37,863 nt of DNA from a virus, in IMG/VR virus record IMGVR_UViG_3300026097_000048, positions 1 through 37,863 of that record; one strand, written 5' to 3'. Both the position numbers and the translations under genes were made by a program. Positions 14,628-25,282 of the stretch are shown here, one piece after another (the first letter of the stretch is position 1; the number at the start of each line of letters is the position of its first letter). Under the pieces are notes generated by a model. It saw only the letters and a list, made by a program, of their open reading frames with translations. It was not told where the DNA came from and made no database searches.

Positions 14628-15038
14628 TTATAATACTTTTATCATTTCTTGGTTATAATTATCAGCCTTTATATATCCAACATCTTGATACGTCTCTATA
14701 AGGCTTTTATTTTTTATCAGAGCATAAACGTATTTAGCTCCTGAATTTTTACATACAGTAGTAAGTGAGTCAATTAAAAATGTAATTGCTTCTTTCCTAT
14801 TGTCTCTATCCTTGTATTCTACATTTGATATAATCCAATCAACCCAGCATACTTTTGAGTTGGTTATGTATACAAACCCAGCACATACAGGTGTGTCTCC
14901 ATCATAAACAATTAAACCACCATTACCATTGTGAGGAAGAAAATCTTTTTCAGGAGCAGTCCATCTCCATTGCTTCCACCATTTGACTAAAATTTCCTCA
15001 TAATCTCCATCATGAAGGGGTCTAATTTTAAATTCCAT
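14628..15038 (-). CDS. GNAT-family N-acetyltransferase
   Basis: 136 aa with a GNAT layout: strand 1 FKIRPLHDGDYEEI, central strands GGLIVYDGDTPVCAGFVYI and VCWVDWIISNVEYKDR, then helix, and the C-terminal AKYVYALIKNKSLIETYQDVGY (split here) typical of the acetyl-CoA-binding half (N-x-x-x-x-x-Y-x-x-x-G-Y). The Q/R-x-x-G-x-G/A loop is degenerate (YKDRDNRKEA). Such small GNATs recur in late operons of marine phages, where they may modify virion or host proteins. It has its own TAnnTTTG box. Confidence 0.65.
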   Translation of the reverse strand: MEFKIRPLHDGDYEEILVKWWKQWRWTAPEKDFLPHNGNGGLIVYDGDTPVCAGFVYITNSKVCWVDWIISNVEYKDRDNRKEAITFLIDSLTTVCKNSGAKYVYALIKNKSLIETYQDVGYIKADNYNQEMIKVL

Positions 15039-15059: not shown

Positions 15060-15854
15060 TTAAGGATTACTTTTCATTACATCAGACTCAACAGCAAAAA
15101 GCTCAGTAGCAGATGTATCGTCATTTGTTATAACAAATTTGCAATAGTGACCAAGTATACCATTTGATTCACCGACCTGATTTTTAACAAACATTATATA
15201 AGACTCATTAGGCACAGGTGTTACTGCTCCAGATATGCTTGCGTCAAGAACTATGTTGTTGATACCATTAGGCAAGTCAACATTTATGCTTGTTACTACC
15301 CCTGCTAATTGTGGTGTATCATAAGGAGGTGTTGAGAAGTAAGCCACATCACCCACACTTAATATACTGCCTATGCTTGTTGTTAAAGCAAAGTTTATAG
15401 TAGGTGCTGATGTCGTTCCGCTCACACTGCTATTTCTGCCAATACCATTTACGGAGCGAAGTGAGTACTCGCCTTGTGATGCTGGAGTAGTTCCTGAGCT
15501 TCTTACATAAGCAAACCACGCACCTTCTTTTTTTACAAACCAAGGAGCCTCTATATATCCAGTAGTCTGTATGTCAGTCTCCATTGTTACATCCCAAGCA
15601 CTATCAGACTCTAAGTTTATCGTCTTAAATAGCTTGTTCTGTAATGGTGAGTCATTAAATACGCTTGTGACTTGCGAGCTAAATTGCTCTCCATAGAAGT
15701 TGTTTCTTGTCTCGTTGGTATTGTGTCTGTATAGGTTTCCTCCCTTAAAAGAGTATAGGTAATTATTCATTCCTATCATCCAGTCAGGATAAAAAGAATA
15801 AAACGAAGGCCAACCTTGTGCTGATTCGCTATAACTTAGTGTGTAATTTGGCAT
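15060..15854 (-). CDS. Virion protein, stump/needle-like
   Basis: 264 aa. The N-terminal part (residues about 10-95: GWPSFYSFYPDWM, then a LYRHNT segment, FYGEQF and KTINLESDSAWDV) is a pattern I associate with the C-terminal part of large podoviral stump/tail proteins that read out as WxSFxSYxP...NxFYG. The rest is beta-rich with Ser/Thr/Gly. No signal peptide. It may be a separate piece of the distal tail complementing the 1625-aa protein. It follows the modification genes but has its own promoter box. Confidence 0.55.
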   Translation of the reverse strand: MPNYTLSYSESAQGWPSFYSFYPDWMIGMNNYLYSFKGGNLYRHNTNETRNNFYGEQFSSQVTSVFNDSPLQNKLFKTINLESDSAWDVTMETDIQTTGYIEAPWFVKKEGAWFAYVRSSGTTPASQGEYSLRSVNGIGRNSSVSGTTSAPTINFALTTSIGSILSVGDVAYFSTPPYDTPQLAGVVTSINVDLPNGINNIVLDASISGAVTPVPNESYIMFVKNQVGESNGILGHYCKFVITNDDTSATELFAVESDVMKSNP

Positions 15855-15886: not shown

Positions 15887-16540
15887 TTAATAGGTTAATC
15901 CTTGTATTTGAGGTTGAGGTGACTTGTGTTCAAGTCCAATGGTGTTATGTATAAGCACCTTCTTCTCATCCTTTATTGATAGCGGAAATAAAAACTGGTC
16001 TTGTGCGTGATTGTACCTTTCAATAGCAGCGTTCATCTTTGCTGTTATTCTTTCAAAGTCACTATGTTGCGTGTTATACATTATAAGACCGCCATAAAAT
16101 AGCTCTGCCTCACCGCACTCGTTTACGTTCCTTCTTATCTCACTTATCGTTGATACATACCTGTCGTAAGCCATTGAGTCATAGAACTCCCTGTAAACAG
16201 TCTTAGGATTCTTAAATGATAAGAATGGTTCGTCGCCAATGGTGTCAATTAAAGGTTGTATATGCTTGTTCTCAATAATGTATTTGTGGTCTACATATAT
16301 GACATGCTTTGTTCGAGGCTTAAAAGCCTTTAGTGTTTTGACATATTTTGACTGCCGAGTAGCTTTATATAGGTCATTCGTATGAGGGTAGTCCAAATAG
16401 ACAACTTTCCACCCCATATCTTTGCAGTGATTTTTAAATGACTCGTCTCTTAATGTAGTGACTACATAAGCCTCTGATATATCTGTTTTGTGAACTTTAT
16501 TAAAGTTACCTGTAACGCAAGTTACAACTGAGACAGCCAT
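15887..16540 (-). CDS. DUF616 (TOD1/MUCI70)-like glycosyltransferase
   Basis: 217 aa with a GT-A-like order of elements. Strand 1 is VSVVTCVTGNF, followed by a nucleotide-binding-type helix. SKYVKTLKAFKPRTKHVIYVDHK (split) puts Asp84 where DUF616 proteins have their D-G-x metal/sugar-nucleotide motif. FYGGLIMYNTQHSD at 148-161 and a YNHAQDQFLF block (177-186, the DQ pair) match the acceptor half. DUF616 members are predicted glycosyltransferases; plant members act on cell-wall polymers. It overlaps the preceding glycosyltransferase by 19 bases, so the two are made together. The likely target is the phage fibre; the sugar is unknown. Confidence 0.6.
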   Translation of the reverse strand: MAVSVVTCVTGNFNKVHKTDISEAYVVTTLRDESFKNHCKDMGWKVVYLDYPHTNDLYKATRQSKYVKTLKAFKPRTKHVIYVDHKYIIENKHIQPLIDTIGDEPFLSFKNPKTVYREFYDSMAYDRYVSTISEIRRNVNECGEAELFYGGLIMYNTQHSDFERITAKMNAAIERYNHAQDQFLFPLSIKDEKKVLIHNTIGLEHKSPQPQIQGLTY

Positions 16541-17352
16541 TCTTTTGCTTGGTTATAAAATAAATTGTCAGGGAATTTAGATATATCAACACTAGGTATT
16601 TTATGCTTGTCGAACAATGGGTCGCAACTATAATGAGCTATATAGTGGTTATTATTTAGCTCATTTACATTTGGATAATAGCAATTACCTCCGCTAATCA
16701 TTTTTATTCTATGGTTATGACAAGCTATATTTAAGCCATACATCGCACACCACCATGAGTTACTTCCACCTTTGTGCTTCTCAGTGACAAGTATTGAGTA
16801 CCTAATAACATCATCTATTAACTTCTTTATAGTCTTAACCCTGCCTATGACATTAAAACCTCCGTTCATGTAAGCGTTTGAGTCGTGCCATAGATACTCA
16901 GCTACAACCCCTCTATTCTTTGAGTCGGTTCTTGATATGTGCATGTGCCATTCCTCATAAGTTGAATCGGCTATCACTAAATCGTAAGGTATGGAATCGT
17001 ATCTTTCTGGGTACGGTTTCATATGCACAAGGTCTGAGTCAATTATTTCAACCACCTCATCATCAGGTAAATCCTCAATAACTTGCTTAGCTGCTGTAAA
17101 TACATTTATAGGAATATACCACTGCTCCTTACCATCAATGTAGTCATACACTGACTTCACCATTTTATACGGCAAGTTTATATCCCAGTCGACATCATCG
17201 ACAGGAGTCTCACCGCTATGATTATACCTCACTATAGCCATTATAGCTTTATCTGAGGCACTTTCTTCGTAAACCTTATTATGTTGATGTTGGAAAAAAG
17301 ATATTTGCTTACGGAAGCTCTCTATGGGTACTGCACAAGGTATACTTATCAT
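16522..17352 (-). CDS. Glycosyltransferase resembling hydroxyproline/serine O-glycosyltransferases
   Basis: 276 aa. VVEIIDSDLVHMKPYP (100-115) gives a D-x-D motif (Asp105, Asp107) at the end of a strand, as in the (A/P)D-x-D-x-(I/L)-x-x-x-P pattern of plant HPAT (GT95) and peptidyl-serine galactosyltransferase (GT96). YMNGGFNVIGR (161-171) is an acceptor-loop-like block. SNSWWCAMYGLNIAC (197-211) aligns by eye with the W..EMYAY..A motif of that family. YIAHYSCDP (237-245) supplies a late catalytic-type His. The match is from memory, not from a search. It overlaps the prolyl hydroxylase by ATGA (17349-17352), which links proline hydroxylation to glycosylation. A cytoplasmic role is expected since no signal peptide is present. 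Confidence 0.6.
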   Translation of the reverse strand: MISIPCAVPIESFRKQISFFQHQHNKVYEESASDKAIMAIVRYNHSGETPVDDVDWDINLPYKMVKSVYDYIDGKEQWYIPINVFTAAKQVIEDLPDDEVVEIIDSDLVHMKPYPERYDSIPYDLVIADSTYEEWHMHISRTDSKNRGVVAEYLWHDSNAYMNGGFNVIGRVKTIKKLIDDVIRYSILVTEKHKGGSNSWWCAMYGLNIACHNHRIKMISGGNCYYPNVNELNNNHYIAHYSCDPLFDKHKIPSVDISKFPDNLFYNQAKEWLSQL

Positions 17353-18521
17353 ACTAACTTATAATGAACAAAAAAGTTTCTAAAAAATTCACCGCCAAAT
17401 GGCTCTTGTCTTCCGTGCTCACAAATAGCTGACTCGTATAATATCATATCGCCAGGCTCTGCATACACTTTATGCCAATTACCATCGTGGTCTTGTATGT
17501 CTAAAGGCCAGTCATCTGCAAACTCTTTATGTTTGCAACCACATCTAAGGTCTTTATCGACTATAATGATTGAAGATATATGGTGTGTCTCAACTCTATC
17601 TACATGGTTTATTAGCGTTGCCCCTTTTGTATACGACCTAATGCCATAAATAAAACTTGGCTCTATAGAAACGCCACAGAACTCCTCGTGTACAGGCTGC
17701 AACTCTTTGTGTATAGCTGCTCTTATGCTTGGCAAATGCTCAAATGAAAGTATATCGCTACCTCCCCCTATAATTACACTTTCTTTGCCTTGAAACACCT
17801 CTTCTGTTTTTTTGTCTTTGAGAATATTATAAGCGTCCTGTATTAAACCCCAAGCCGTTTCTGGGCATTTAACAACCTTAAAACCTTTCTCAGTTAGCTT
17901 TGGTATCTGGTCTTTATGCGTGTATACTTTTTTCATATTTTTATACTTATATGTATCTTCTGCATTGTTCCATTCGTTTTCTCGCCACCATGAGGTAATG
18001 ATGTATTTTTTTCCTTTTACTACGGACTGACCTTCGTGCAAAGTTTCTGATATGCCCACTCCATCTTTTGTGTTTCTCCATATAACAGCCTTACCTTTCT
18101 TTGGTTTTACCGATGTTTCAAGCTGAGGGAAATTAGTTTCCCCTCCTTCAAAATCATCATTGAGATAAATCATAAATGTAAAAGTTCTGTTTCCTGAGCT
18201 TAGACAGTGTTTGTCATAAGCACTACCGCTAAAGAAATCATTGTGCGGTTTAAAGAACTGACCAGGCTCGTATAATTGGCCTTGTAATGCCTCACCTTTC
18301 TCGATAGGCTCATCTAAGTGAGCAGCTATTTTATTATGCACCCTACTTACAAGCTCGTTGCTCGGCTCAAGGTTGCTAGTGCTTGACGTTCTTGTCTCTG
18401 ACACTTTGCTTATATCAGTGCCACCCTCAACTACTGAGGAGCGAGTATGATTGGCGTCAATCATTGATACCAATAAGTCACAATCCTCGTGGCTTAAAAA
18501 GTCTTCGATTTGAATTATCAT
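17349..18521 (-). CDS. Prolyl 4-hydroxylase with a second 2OG-Fe(II) oxygenase domain
   Basis: 390 aa and two oxygenase domains. Domain 1 (1-180) follows prolyl 4-hydroxylases closely: SETRTSST (41-48), LYEPGQFFKPHNDFF (83-97) with iron ligands His93 and Asp95, FMIYLNDDFEGGETNFP (116-132), VKPKKGKAVIWRN, then His162 and the 2-oxoglutarate lysine at +10 (Lys172) in GKKYIITSWWRE. Domain 2 (about 285-390) has HVD (306-308), EHGR (His369) and Arg381, a second full His-x-Asp...His...Arg set. It converts peptidyl proline to hydroxyproline using O2, 2-oxoglutarate, Fe(II) and ascorbate or another reductant. It sits one gene after the Pro-rich fibre and is fused by ATGA overlap to a glycosyltransferase gene. 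The role of domain 2 is open: another residue, or a structural copy. Confidence 0.88.
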   Translation of the reverse strand: MIIQIEDFLSHEDCDLLVSMIDANHTRSSVVEGGTDISKVSETRTSSTSNLEPSNELVSRVHNKIAAHLDEPIEKGEALQGQLYEPGQFFKPHNDFFSGSAYDKHCLSSGNRTFTFMIYLNDDFEGGETNFPQLETSVKPKKGKAVIWRNTKDGVGISETLHEGQSVVKGKKYIITSWWRENEWNNAEDTYKYKNMKKVYTHKDQIPKLTEKGFKVVKCPETAWGLIQDAYNILKDKKTEEVFQGKESVIIGGGSDILSFEHLPSIRAAIHKELQPVHEEFCGVSIEPSFIYGIRSYTKGATLINHVDRVETHHISSIIIVDKDLRCGCKHKEFADDWPLDIQDHDGNWHKVYAEPGDMILYESAICEHGRQEPFGGEFFRNFFVHYKLV

Positions 18522-18537: not shown

Positions 18538-18951
18538 TTAATTTATATTGTACAAGACTTTATTTGACTCTATCTTTTTCTTGGTATATTCATTTGGCTT
18601 GTTATTGTAAAAGGACTGATGCAAATCTATATCTCCCTTTGGTGTTATAACATTAACACCTCTTATAAGGCTATGCTCAATATCTTCATTTATTACAAAA
18701 CAATCTACTATCCAGTTGTCGACTTTCATTATGAATTGGTCTATAATTGGTAAAGGAAAAGAAGTCCCTTCGCTTAAAGGTAAATACTCTCCTAATAGTT
18801 TAATGCTTTCTACCGAGCCTATTGGTATACAAATGTCTATCCATTTTTTATCGTACCCTTCAGAATAGCCGTTTAGCCATTTTGCAACACCTCCGACTAT
18901 TATTGCTGAGCCAGAGGTTGTGTCGTTAATTTGTTTTAATATACTATCCAT
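18538..18951 (-). CDS. Nucleotidyltransferase-fold-like protein
   Basis: 137 aa. GSAIIVGGVAKWLNGYS (14-30) followed by KKWIDICIPIG resembles the GG/GS...hD-x-D start of minimal nucleotidyltransferases. WIVDCFVIN (80-88) stands where the third acidic residue would be. The second Asp of D-x-D is replaced (D-I-C), so the fold could be present without normal catalysis. Position between the Pro-rich fibre and the hydroxylase suggests a role in sugar-nucleotide supply or fibre modification, but this is guesswork. Gaps to its neighbours are 16 and 11 bases. Confidence 0.4.
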   Translation of the reverse strand: MDSILKQINDTTSGSAIIVGGVAKWLNGYSEGYDKKWIDICIPIGSVESIKLLGEYLPLSEGTSFPLPIIDQFIMKVDNWIVDCFVINEDIEHSLIRGVNVITPKGDIDLHQSFYNNKPNEYTKKKIESNKVLYNIN

Positions 18952-18962
18952 AAACTATAATT

Positions 18963-20404
<1,442 letters not shown>

Positions 20405-20405
<1 letters not shown>

Positions 20406-23400
20406 TATAAATATTCACAATTAGTATTCTCAGTACAAGAACCTCCGTTCTCAAGCTCAATAACTCCAGATATAGTCACTATTGTATTAGTGCTTGAATC
20501 CCAAGTCGATGGCGATAATGTGCTACATACGCCATAAACAACTCCCTCATCCCCTCCGTATGTGTATGGAGTTCCAAGTAAGTTATTAAATAAAGAGTCA
20601 GTCACACTTCCTCCTGGTGGCTTGTATCTTAAACCGTATCTTGAGCCATCAACACCATTTTCAACAAACACAAATCTACAAGTACCTACTACGGTTGGAC
20701 TTGGTACTGGAACTGGCACAGGTACTGAGCAATCACAGCAAGCATCAAAAGTTGATACATCTGAGTAGCAAAGTGTTGCAGCAGTTGATTCTCTGTAATC
20801 CCAAACCAAATACAAGTACTGGCCACTTACAGGCATTGTAAAGTTAGCTGAATATGTAGTTCCGTCTGCAACTATAGGCGTGGCCTCAGCAGAAGCTGAA
20901 AGAAGTGACGCCATGTCACTTGAGTTATTCTCGTATAATGTGTTGGTTCTAATGTACTTTAATTTATTTTTATCTGTATTAAATACAAAATCATCAAAGT
21001 CAATCTTATTAGAGTATATAGTAACAGTTGCCCCATCATTTGGTATAATACCTGCTCCTTGTGGCCCAGTAACTGATGTATACTGAGATACAAGAGGAGA
21101 CTCATCTCCTGATGCAAATGTAACTAAGTTTGAATGTAAAGGCGAGTTAAAAGTTCCTTCCTTCCATCTATACTCGTTGTGTATATATTTACCAGCATTG
21201 TTGTCGCTTGTAATACAAACATTGAATATTGTAATCTCATCTGCTTGTGGACATCCAACAGTAACTTGAACGGTATCGTCTTGAGTGTTTGTTGTTGACA
21301 CTGTTATCTGTGCCTCAGTTGCACTTACTGAATTTTTAGGGAATGTAAGTGTTCCACTTGTAAAAACTTCTCCAGTGGTATACACATTGCCATTGTAAGT
21401 AACTGATATTGTATATCCAGTTCCTGTCTGTGCCACCTCAGTAACAACATCTTCTCCAGACTCTGTTTGTATGTCATCCGCAGAAAGTTCAGTAACAATA
21501 TTGTCAAGACCTTCAAATGGTATCACATAGTCAACATCAACATCTCCAACGACCTCTGATAAATCAACACAATAAGTAAAGTCTTTGCTGCTGTTTAAAG
21601 TAATGTTCTTGCTTATACCGCAGTTTATGCACTCGTCAATAACAGGAATTAAATTCTCGTTAGAAGATAATACATATTCATTCATATAAGGGTCAAACGC
21701 ACCTAGCTTTTGTGTTTTAAAAGATTCTATAAAAGTATCTCTAAACCAAGAACGCATACCTTCTTGAGATATAACAGTAAGCTCATCGCTTTTGTAAGAC
21801 GCTCCTCTCAACCTAAGTACAGCCCCTCTCTTAGCGTCTGTAAAAAACTTGTCATAGCCCCATGATGAGAAACTCTCAGGATTTGAGCTAATACCAAAGT
21901 TCTCAAGTCTTGCTATCTGAGTTCCTAAAACCTCTGGAACTGACGTCACAGCAGAACCTCCTGTCGAGTCTGTAAGTAAATTCTTACCAGCAAGCACATA
22001 TGATATTTTATCTTCTTGCAAAGTAAGTATGTCAGTCTCTCTTGCGAATAACATTTCTATAGGCCCAAATATATCCTCTAGTGGCTTAAAGTTTAATAGG
22101 CCAAGGTTGAACTCGTTTAATTTGTTTACGTTGCTCTCATCGTTGTAAACACCGCTATATGTCAAGTCAGCAAATCTATCAGCTTCTTTGTACTCAATGT
22201 TTGATGTAGAGAATATTCTATTACCTAAGTTAAAGTACTTTCCTGATATACTATCTCGTATCTTGTAGCTTTCAGCTCCATTGCCAAAGGCAAAACAGTT
22301 GAAGAACTCAGTATTTACAATAGCTGGCTTATTTAGAGTAAAGTCTTGGTTTTGAACATTACCACCATGCTCGCCTGTTGGTGTTATTGGGAATGATAAA
22401 TTATTCTCATACCAAACATCTGGCAAAGCATCTGCTGGCTCTGACTCAAACACTAATGTTCTGTCGGCTCTATATACCGTAAACTCAGCTTGAACAGTAG
22501 AGCGTCTTTTTGAGTTTTGACCAATCCCACTGCATCTTCTTGTCCCTGTTACTAATAAAAATAACTGATTGGTAGTGGTGTTTCTATAAAATCTATAATA
22601 GTTAGTAGCACCCGCTACACTTATGATTGAATTTCCTGGAGCAGCTAAACTATTTGGTGGATTTGATGTTCCAGTTGCTAATGTTTGGTCATAAGAATTG
22701 CTTATGCCTTCATCGTTAGCCCCTACATTTTGTATTCCATCATCTAAAATATTTGATATATTATCTCCATTAAACCAATCAAACATATTGTCGTAGTCCT
22801 CAGAAGAGCTAAGCGTAATTTCGCCTAATGTATATATCCTTCTTTCACAACTATTATTACCATCCCCTGTTCCTAGTCTTTGTTGTTTTATTTTCATTAC
22901 AATCCTACTTCCCGAAGGAACTGTGTAGTCAATATAATTACCAGGGTTAGAAGGGTCTTCTATATTCATTGGGTAAGCTAATATTGGAAACTTATCCTTT
23001 GCATTTTCATCTCTCGTTTTTTGACCTAAAGCAATAACTGAGTTCTCTTCTTGTATTACCGTGAAGTTGCTTGGGTTTATTTTCATATAAACACCAGCGG
23101 GTATAGGCAATAGAACAGGAGTATCAGGAGCTGGGTCAGGCTGTATCTCTGATGGTATCTCTAAGAAGTTGGCCGCTTGCGACTCTTTCTCAAGCACAGT
23201 TGCGTACACGCAGTTTTGCATTTCGCCAACAGAGTCTCTTTTAACTACAAGTCTATCTCCTTGCTCTATCTTAGCAGCGTTCTCACCTTCTAATAAAAAG
23301 TAAGCAGCGTTACTTGTTGGGTCTTCAAAGAATATATTGCTATATATTGTGTCGTAAGTATCTTCATCGGGCTTAATAACAAACTTATATCTTGAGGCCC

Positions 23401-25282
23401 ACGATGGTGCTACTTGAGTAGTTGGTATTGATACCTGTATTGAGTTTTTGTTTGAAGAGTTTGAGCAGGGTATCTTAATGGTATTGTCTGGACTAACGAG
23501 TGCTGTTGAAGCTCTGTTAAACTCATCCATATACACAATACCTATCTCATACCCTCTGTTACTATGTAAACTTCTTGTGTTAGATACTTTTTGATAATAT
23601 CCTTCTGCAAATACAACTGAGTAGTACTCATACACATCTTGAGTCGGAGTAGTTACATTATCCACATATCTCATGGCTTGAAACTGTAAACCTATTCTTG
23701 TACTCGCTGGATTAGTTATAACTTGTATTGGCTCGCCATCATCATATATACCACTTGCTAATTTAGTAAGTGAATCTAAGTTGTTTGGCAGTAAGCAGTT
23801 TACTTGGTCTGTAAGTGTAGTTCCATTACAAGCATCAGCTACAGTCTGTATGTTTGATGCGTTACCAATCTTCTCAATAAAATCACTATCAGTTGCAAGC
23901 TCGTATACTGAGTCATAATCAGAAAGAAGAACATAATTAAACGATACCTCTATATCTACAGTAGTCTCATCAGGAAAAGGCGTGTCTCCAGCAAAGTCAA
24001 TATGGGATAGCCTTACGTCAAAAGTAATTGAAGACCCTTGAACAAGCTCTACACCATCCAAGTCAAAAAACACTATGGCATTTTGAACATACTTACCTAT
24101 TCCTCCAATATTATAAGCACCTCCCTCAGTAGTATCAGGCAAGTCAGTCTCTCCTATAACCTCAGAAATAAGAGAAGTCTTGTACTCAAATCTTGTCTTA
24201 TTACCGTTAGCGTCAACCATATTGTTGCCGTCAACATAATTTCCGTACACAAGCCTATTGGCCATTACCGTTTGAGCCTTCGCTAATTTAGGTACATTGT
24301 CATATAACCTTAATATCTCGCTGTCAGGAAGTACTGTGAATATCTTACTGTTCGTGAAAGTATATGTATAGTCAGTATTGTCTGAGTAGCCAAGCTCTGA
24401 TTTGTTTAGTTTTTGTATTACTTTAATCGTAGGGGTCTGAGCTTCTTTAAATAAAAGGTCGATACCAACCACAAGAGGGCCTCCTGAGTTGAATGTTATT
24501 ATGCTGCTATTCGTAGAATTTTGCATACCCTCATTGAGGTAGCTATTGTAACTAAAGTTAAAAGGCTTTGGCACAAAAGAAGGCTCACTAAATTGAGACG
24601 TGGCGGAATATCCGCCATCTTCATATCTGTATCTATATGCAAAGCAAATAAACCTATCTTCTAAAAATGTATCTTGGTCTCCTGTCTTTATTGGCTGTAT
24701 CGTAGGAGCTTCTATAGGTGGTCTTTTTATAACCATTATAGATTCGTCACTAAACTGGTCTATATTTGTGACAGGATTAGGGTAGTTTCTTTTTATATTT
24801 ATAAACCTTGGCGGGTTTAAATCGTCAGTAAAAAACAACAAGTCATCAATAATGTTAATTCCTGTTATTAGATATTGACTGTCAAAATTAAGAGTAGTCG
24901 TAACTCCATCGCCACTGTCTATACTTACAATATGATACGTTAGATTCTGAGTATTCGTATTGTACGACACAACCATATCTAATTTACCAGTATCTCCTAA
25001 AGAAAAATTACTATCGTGTATAAACCAATATATAGTTTCTCTTGAGCCATCCTCAATAGCTCCTATACATCTTGCACTTGAACTTAACGCTGTTCCATCT
25101 ATGTATTGAAGAGATGTGACCTTTGTGTTACCTTTTGAGTTTTCTACAGAGCCAATCTCAGACTGCTCAGTAGAGCCAAGCCTCACGTTTAAAGCATCAA
25201 TATACTCTCCGTTTGGTACAAGCCTTTCGTCAAGGCTCTTATTCATTCGCCCTGCTATAAAATTTCTTTGGATATTAGCCAT
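20405..25282 (-). CDS. Tail stump / tubular-B-like virion protein with a C-terminal Pro-linked domain
   Basis: 1625 aa. The start ([32 protein letters not shown], split here as it is long) is the usual opening of T7 gp12-like/stump proteins: a gly-x-N-x-D...P-x-G-x-Y-x-x-A-x-N-x-R pattern. It is beta-rich throughout, with Asn/Ser/Thr-rich repeats and no enzyme motif. Near residue 1180 [22 protein letters not shown] is a conserved-looking loop. The last 110 residues are a separate module joined by [15 protein letters not shown] (about 1513-1530), the same Pro linker as in the next gene, and end with Cys-containing sequence. It overlaps the fibre gene by one base; that and the shared linker suggest that the two work together at the tail tip. 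Confidence 0.7.
20693..20728 (-). repeat. Proline linker in the stump gene
   Basis: Encodes [12 protein letters not shown] right after a CCDC motif. It is the same design as the tracts in the neighbouring fibre gene and could serve as a recombination site between the two genes. Confidence 0.8.

Follow-up and report, generated by a model that had tools for sequence, protein, structure and literature searches.

The viral fragment analysed here (37.9 kb; 37,863 nucleotides, hereafter the window) carries, beside its tail genes, a cassette in which a predicted prolyl 4-hydroxylase (P4H), a glycosyltransferase (GT) distantly related to the plant hydroxyproline arabinosyltransferases (HPATs), and a protein with long X-Pro repeats are encoded close together. 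It is probable that this cassette makes a hydroxyproline-rich glycoprotein, in which prolines of the tail repeats would be hydroxylated and then glycosylated.

PHROG and Pfam matches identified crAss-like structural genes in the window. The genes for the muzzle, portal, terminase and capsid proteins are found in crAss-type order, and the Pfam matches include crAss_MUZ_C, which places the window in the Crassvirales. Its portal protein is 73.6% identical to that of MW202828 (Manatee Spring) and 45–49% identical (lowest value, 44.7%) to those of the Flavobacterium elemo and Maribacter Panino phages. The window represents a marine phage related to crAssphage of the gut, and the cassette lies beside the tail genes. 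The genes of the region are arranged on the minus strand in the following order:

20405–25282, minus strand: crAss-like tail muzzle protein, 1625 aa (phrog_14478; E-value, 7e-222)
18963–20405, minus strand: appendage-type protein, 480 aa, in which long (Val/Thr/Ser/Ala/Ile-Pro)n runs separate small repeated domains, as read from its sequence; proposed substrate
18538–18951, minus strand: ORF for a small protein, 137 aa, between the repeat protein and the P4H
17349–18521, minus strand: tandem 2OG-Fe(II) oxygenase, 390 aa, with a predicted N-terminal P4H and a second 2OG-oxygenase-like domain; adjacent to and upstream of the GT
16522–17352, minus strand: HPAT-like GT-A glycosyltransferase, 276 aa, DxD at D105/D107 (ORF; PF23452 in 24 of 43 family members; hhalign; AlphaFold; Foldseek)
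15887–16540, minus strand: conserved cassette gene, 217 aa, starting inside the GT gene; candidate second GT-A enzyme (homologues beside the GT in many loci)
15060–15854, minus strand: crAss muzzle-C-terminal-domain protein, closing the cassette (PF25729; E-value, 1.5e-19)
14628–15038, minus strand: small gene, GNAT-like by eye, placed after the muzzle-C gene here and in several crAss-like relatives

The GT gene overlaps both of its neighbours, its start with the stop of the P4H gene and its end with the start of the 217-aa gene. An earlier reading of the letters alone (the sequence-only reading) had singled out this frame as a phage glycosyltransferase with plant HPAT- and SGT-like motifs, and a frame with precisely the coordinates given there exists on the minus strand, from an ATG at 17352 to a stop ending at 16522.

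On its own, the window GT gave no confident match to Pfam or PHROGs, and none to the HPAT family PF23452 (GT95) up to an E-value of 10. When this protein and a number of its relatives were compared by tblastn with 50,697 annotated phages and with 72,556 plasmids, no matches were returned. An HPAT query likewise gave none in viral, genome and phage collections, and a canonical HPAT DNA motif sought in viral contigs was not found in them. Close homologues of the window GT are few (three at 78% identity). Distant ones were reached via the neighbouring hydroxylase gene, and the resulting alignment then found 80 viral loci. The viral GT alignment comprises 43 sequences, with relatives 32–78% identical to the window protein. 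Scanned singly, 24 of the 43 family members matched PF23452 (best E-value, 4.2e-12), and five of ten members scanned singly exceeded the Pfam curated cut-off of 23.9 bits (L285, 39.2; L229, 31.0; L240, 27.7; L289, 26.2; and L281, 25.0 bits); the second of these, L229, is 50% identical to the window GT. Alignment of the phage profile with an HPAT exemplar by hhalign yielded an E-value of 6.6e-8 and a probability of 94.6%, and no comparable match was obtained with reversed HPAT, shuffled HPAT, GT60, O-fucosyltransferase (O-FucT) or GT32 decoys. Similarly, the phage HMM scored 30.2 bits to the exemplar versus 4.8 bits to the best decoy. Because the exemplar is not a database record, and a match of 426 bits to PF23452 is its sole validation, the Pfam results are taken as the primary evidence for HPAT kinship. 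The profile searches led to the HPAT family itself and not to unrelated bacterial glycosyltransferases. These comparisons support the placement of the phage GT family with PF23452, to which the window protein would belong by transitivity, and the resemblance first noticed by eye can be regarded as genuine distant homology.

An AlphaFold model of the window GT built on the 43-sequence alignment (pLDDT 96.0, pTM 0.92; pLDDT 35 with three near-identical sequences) has a GT-A fold, and GT95 is likewise predicted to be GT-A-like (PMC8476585). The model was matched by Foldseek to GT-A enzymes, namely alpha-1,3-galactosyltransferase and blood-group A/B synthases (E-value, 1e-7; TM about 0.5). That the top matches are other GT-A families, with no HPAT structure among the matches listed, and that the window GT by itself lacks a Pfam match would agree with a likeness to HPAT limited to the general GT-A fold and the DxD motif, with no common descent. 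However, several relatives score above the curated PF23452 cut-off and GT decoys of other families give no comparable score with the phage profile, so that this explanation is highly improbable and already largely refuted.

The motifs named in the sequence-only reading are all present in the window GT: IDSDLVHMKPYP (D105/D107), NGGFNVIG (N163-G164-G165) and WCAMYGLNIA (W201, M204). Residues D105, D107, G164, G165, W200, W201, M204, C211, H240-Y241-S242 and D244 are invariant across the 43 viral sequences, and little or no variation is seen at the DxD, YExWH, GG, WWxxM, C, HYSxD and FxK positions, which argues that the motifs are not due to chance. The suggested correspondence to the W..EMY block of the plant enzymes holds in part: the W and M do not vary and the window protein has the Y, but every sequence of alignment A3 carries A, G, C, L or T where the plant enzymes have Glu. 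That this HPAT residue is not conserved in the phage family counts against the proposed role of the cassette.

The protein encoded by 17349–18521 matches PF13640 (E-value, 6.8e-19) and contains the HxD...H and 2OG-binding Lys of the 2OG-Fe(II) fold. Its P4H domain comprises residues 1–195, and the second 2OG-oxygenase-like domain approximately residues 196–390. The phmmer search retrieved the Bacillus-type P4H 5iax/3itq (E-value, 4e-26) and the P4H 2jig/3gze (E-value, 6e-17), while H93, D95, H162 and K172 do not vary among distant phage P4Hs. As its best solved relatives are P4Hs, the N-terminal domain is predicted to be a prolyl 4-hydroxylase. The C-terminal part matches a 2OG oxygenase of Synechococcus phage S-SCSM1; this second domain (17349–17936, minus strand) also matches phrog_2954/3531, labelled 'ferrochelatase', which is probably a misannotation.

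With regard to the proposed substrate, MW202828 has a repeat-free protein in the corresponding position, to which the N-terminus of the 480-aa protein is 40% identical (E-value, 3e-18). The repeat draws on every codon for Pro and for Val, indicating that it is maintained at the protein level and is no DNA microsatellite. Comparison of the repeats also showed that the C-terminal tail of the muzzle contains a 10-residue segment absent from the MW202828 homologue, and in relatives the muzzle-C-terminal-domain protein itself bears X-Pro repeats. The X residues of the window repeats are 60% Val and 29% Ser/Thr, so Ser/Thr residues are a minority of the possible acceptors in the window. This composition bears on the alternative that the cassette O-glycosylates Ser/Thr of the repeats in a mucin-like manner, with proline as a spacer and the P4H only stiffening the polyproline helix or modifying something else. 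In many relatives the repeats are indeed rich in Thr/Ser (with a Ser/Thr fraction as high as 0.99), loci L331 and L367 combine TP repeats with a GT60 gene and no P4H, GT60 holds a Trypanosoma cruzi polypeptide GlcNAc-transferase as well (PMC6939170), and SGT1 of GT96, a family related to GT95, galactosylates Ser (PMC8012813). Nevertheless, we consider Ser/Thr acceptors unlikely, given that the repeats are mostly Val-Pro in the window and in L217 and L218, that Ala-Pro is the commonest unit in L353 and L149, and that most loci with the HPAT-like GT also have a P4H. A comparison of GT types showed no difference in X residue composition (p 0.80), and the idea of such a difference was discarded.

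As for the remaining genes, homologues of the 137-aa protein come after repeat-bearing muzzle genes in L331 and L367. The 217-aa protein has YxDHK in place of DxD, and three of 11 members matched GT34 weakly (E-value, 0.0088); this protein is possibly a second GT-A enzyme, whereas its assignment as a TOD1/MUCI70-type enzyme found no support and was rejected. The MW202828 copy of the GNAT-like gene is annotated as an N-terminal acetyltransferase subunit.

The association of GT and P4H recurs among viral contigs that were found through the GT alone: a P4H, usually encoded by the adjacent gene, is present in 66 of 81 GT loci with near copies included, and in about 31 of 40 GT loci clusters after their removal. 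An X-Pro repeat protein was found in 40 of the 81 loci, the flanks of which are often truncated. As a background, 120 mostly unrelated viral loci returned by a PVPVPVP DNA pattern were used, and none of them contains a P4H; the pattern was accordingly discarded as a cassette marker. The two genes occur in several arrangements: P4H-GT in crAss-like phages; a P4H of about 385 aa and then the GT in L192, L240 and L283; an N-terminally extended GT and then the P4H in L247 and L248; and the repeat protein followed by the GT, with the P4H on the other strand, in L229 and L230. The cassette is thus not one frozen block. The extra N-terminal domain of the GT in L247 (6380–7834; a 287 kb contig) and L248 looks like an SGNH hydrolase by eye (GDSWTAGHG). 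In L289 (5984–7897) and L290, an N-terminal GT60 and a C-terminal HPAT-like GT form a single 638-aa chain. The UDP-arabinose mutase of plant-type arabinose supply (PF03214) was absent from 20 GT-bearing viral records, many of which are fragments.

To follow repeats and enzymes together, 72 crAss-like loci with enough upstream sequence were collected with an unrelated bait, the muzzle-C-type tail protein. X-Pro runs of at least five were found in 9 of 10 P4H-positive loci (the tenth has a run of four) versus 3 of 62 P4H-negative loci; the nominal Fisher p of 2.5e-8 overstates the independent evidence, since the tree supports only three independent repeat–P4H pairs (one concordant, two uninformative), with at least five changes in P4H. 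Two of the repeat-bearing loci without P4H, L331 and L367, have GT60 and GT32 genes at the place of the cassette, and the third, L296, has a homologue of the second 2OG domain together with an O-FucT and a carbamoyltransferase. Proline hydroxylation is thus not obligatory for cassettes with X-Pro repeats.

These distributions are also relevant to the view that the GT and P4H act on other targets, such as a host surface glycan, another virion protein or modified DNA, and that their clustering with tail genes reflects a hot spot for accessory genes. Marine phages, S-SCSM1 and AG-345-E08 among them, do often carry 2OG oxygenases and GTs as accessory genes, and about half of the GT loci lack a visible X-Pro protein, from which it follows that the GTs of these loci may use other acceptors. 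In the crAss-like loci, however, the presence of the repeats follows that of the enzymes, and MW202828, which keeps homologous muzzle and appendage proteins, lacks repeats, P4H and GT there all together. We therefore regard unrelated targets as quite improbable, more so than Ser/Thr acceptors.

Most relatives without the HPAT-like GT retain the P4H, and in these the gap between the P4H and muzzle-C genes is occupied by O-FucT (PF10250), GT60 (PF11397) or GT32 (PF04488) genes, as well as by nucleotide-sugar epimerases, NodU-type carbamoyltransferases and radical SAM/SPASM proteins. A protein GT of one kind or another was found in 43 of 50 P4H/repeat loci and in 2 of the 40 crAss-like loci that lack a P4H. 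GT95 (HPAT) glycosylates hydroxyproline (PMC8012813), and Gnt1, which transfers GlcNAc in the Skp1 prolyl-hydroxylation pathway, belongs to GT60 (PMC6939170). The recurrence of two families with hydroxyproline-modifying members beside one P4H may be considered the strongest indirect evidence for a hydroxyproline acceptor.

In crAss-like phages, GT60 genes (PF11397, up to 256.7 bits) adjoin X-Pro repeat proteins, with the P4H present or absent, in L331 (5281–6519), L163 (10250–11182) and L151 (8305–10248), and in the last of these an O-FucT is fused to the GT60. NodU-type carbamoyltransferase genes lie inside the cassette in L144, L149, L296 and L161; L161 also has a radical SAM/SPASM gene beside the P4H, and similar-looking genes are found in L155 and L157. 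A cluster in the tail region of Marine virus AG-345-E08 (MH319737; L128) contains several 2OG oxygenases and GT-A-like genes in alternation with RCC1-like repeat proteins (SSPVQIPGTTW). In Synechococcus phage S-SCSM1 (102203–104620; L129), a 2OG oxygenase, a protein O-fucosyltransferase and a further 2OG oxygenase follow one another, and genes for GDP-fucose synthesis are located close by; this cluster is possibly a parallel cassette in cyanophages.

Taken as a pathway to a hydroxyproline-rich glycoprotein, the cassette would operate as follows. The phage would make tail-tip or appendage proteins with X-Pro repeats, the prolines of which would be hydroxylated by the adjoining P4H domain. The HPAT-like GT would then move a sugar, not assumed to be arabinose, from a nucleotide sugar onto the new hydroxyl of hydroxyproline, and the glycan may be lengthened or decorated by the 217-aa protein and by other genes of relatives. 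The crassvirus muzzle is located at the tail tip (PMC10172136), and the likely product at this site of the virion would be a rigid polyproline stalk coated with sugar, which might serve in adsorption, stability or masking. We lean slightly towards the broader reading that a widespread aquatic phage family makes true hydroxyproline-rich glycoproteins with a conserved P4H and an interchangeable slot (HPAT-like GT, GT60, O-FucT or GT32) that attaches different sugars, so that the glycan of the stalk could be switched without a change of the stalk itself.

Hydroxyproline O-glycosylation is regarded as plant, algal and protist chemistry, and no published description of it in phages was found in the open-licence papers searched. 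If the proposed pathway is true, plant- and protist-type hydroxyproline glycosylation has phage counterparts, possibly with a phage or bacterial root, which bears on the origin of the HPAT and GT60 families, and phages have a new way to build or mask tail structures. A compact cassette that encodes the hydroxylase, the glycosyltransferase and their substrate next to one another would then offer a bacterial expression route to hydroxyproline-linked glycans, and the natural variety of GTs in its slot would supply a range of enzymes for comparison on one kind of substrate.

Among known systems, phage-encoded GTs have also been proposed to decorate virion proteins in mycobacteriophages, in an account whose abstract mentions no proline hydroxylase or hydroxyproline acceptor (PMC11256854). 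With plant HPAT (GT95; PF23452) and SGT1 (GT96), the phage GT shares homology over most of the chain, the DxD region, W..M(Y), the C-terminal HY(S/T) and the GT-A fold; it would also share with them a pathway that includes a P4H and a presumed X-Pro-rich substrate. It differs in being short and phage-encoded, in having DxD where the HPAT exemplar has EPD, and in the non-conserved Glu of EMY; the HPATs of plants reside in the Golgi as type II membrane proteins (PMC8012813), whereas no membrane anchor is apparent in the 276-aa chain of the window GT. Although the repeat protein here is a phage tail or appendage protein, it would resemble the extensins and arabinogalactan proteins of plant and algal hydroxyproline-rich glycoproteins as a repetitive, Pro-rich substrate of P4H and glycosylation. 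The Dictyostelium/Toxoplasma Skp1 pathway (cytosolic P4H and the GT60 enzyme Gnt1) modifies one site, while the window phage combines an HPAT-like GT with a repetitive tail substrate; GT60 homologues nevertheless sit in the same gene slot in relatives of the window phage, and in the Skp1 pathway prolyl 4-hydroxylation is coupled to hydroxyproline glycosylation in the cytoplasm, as is proposed here for the phage.
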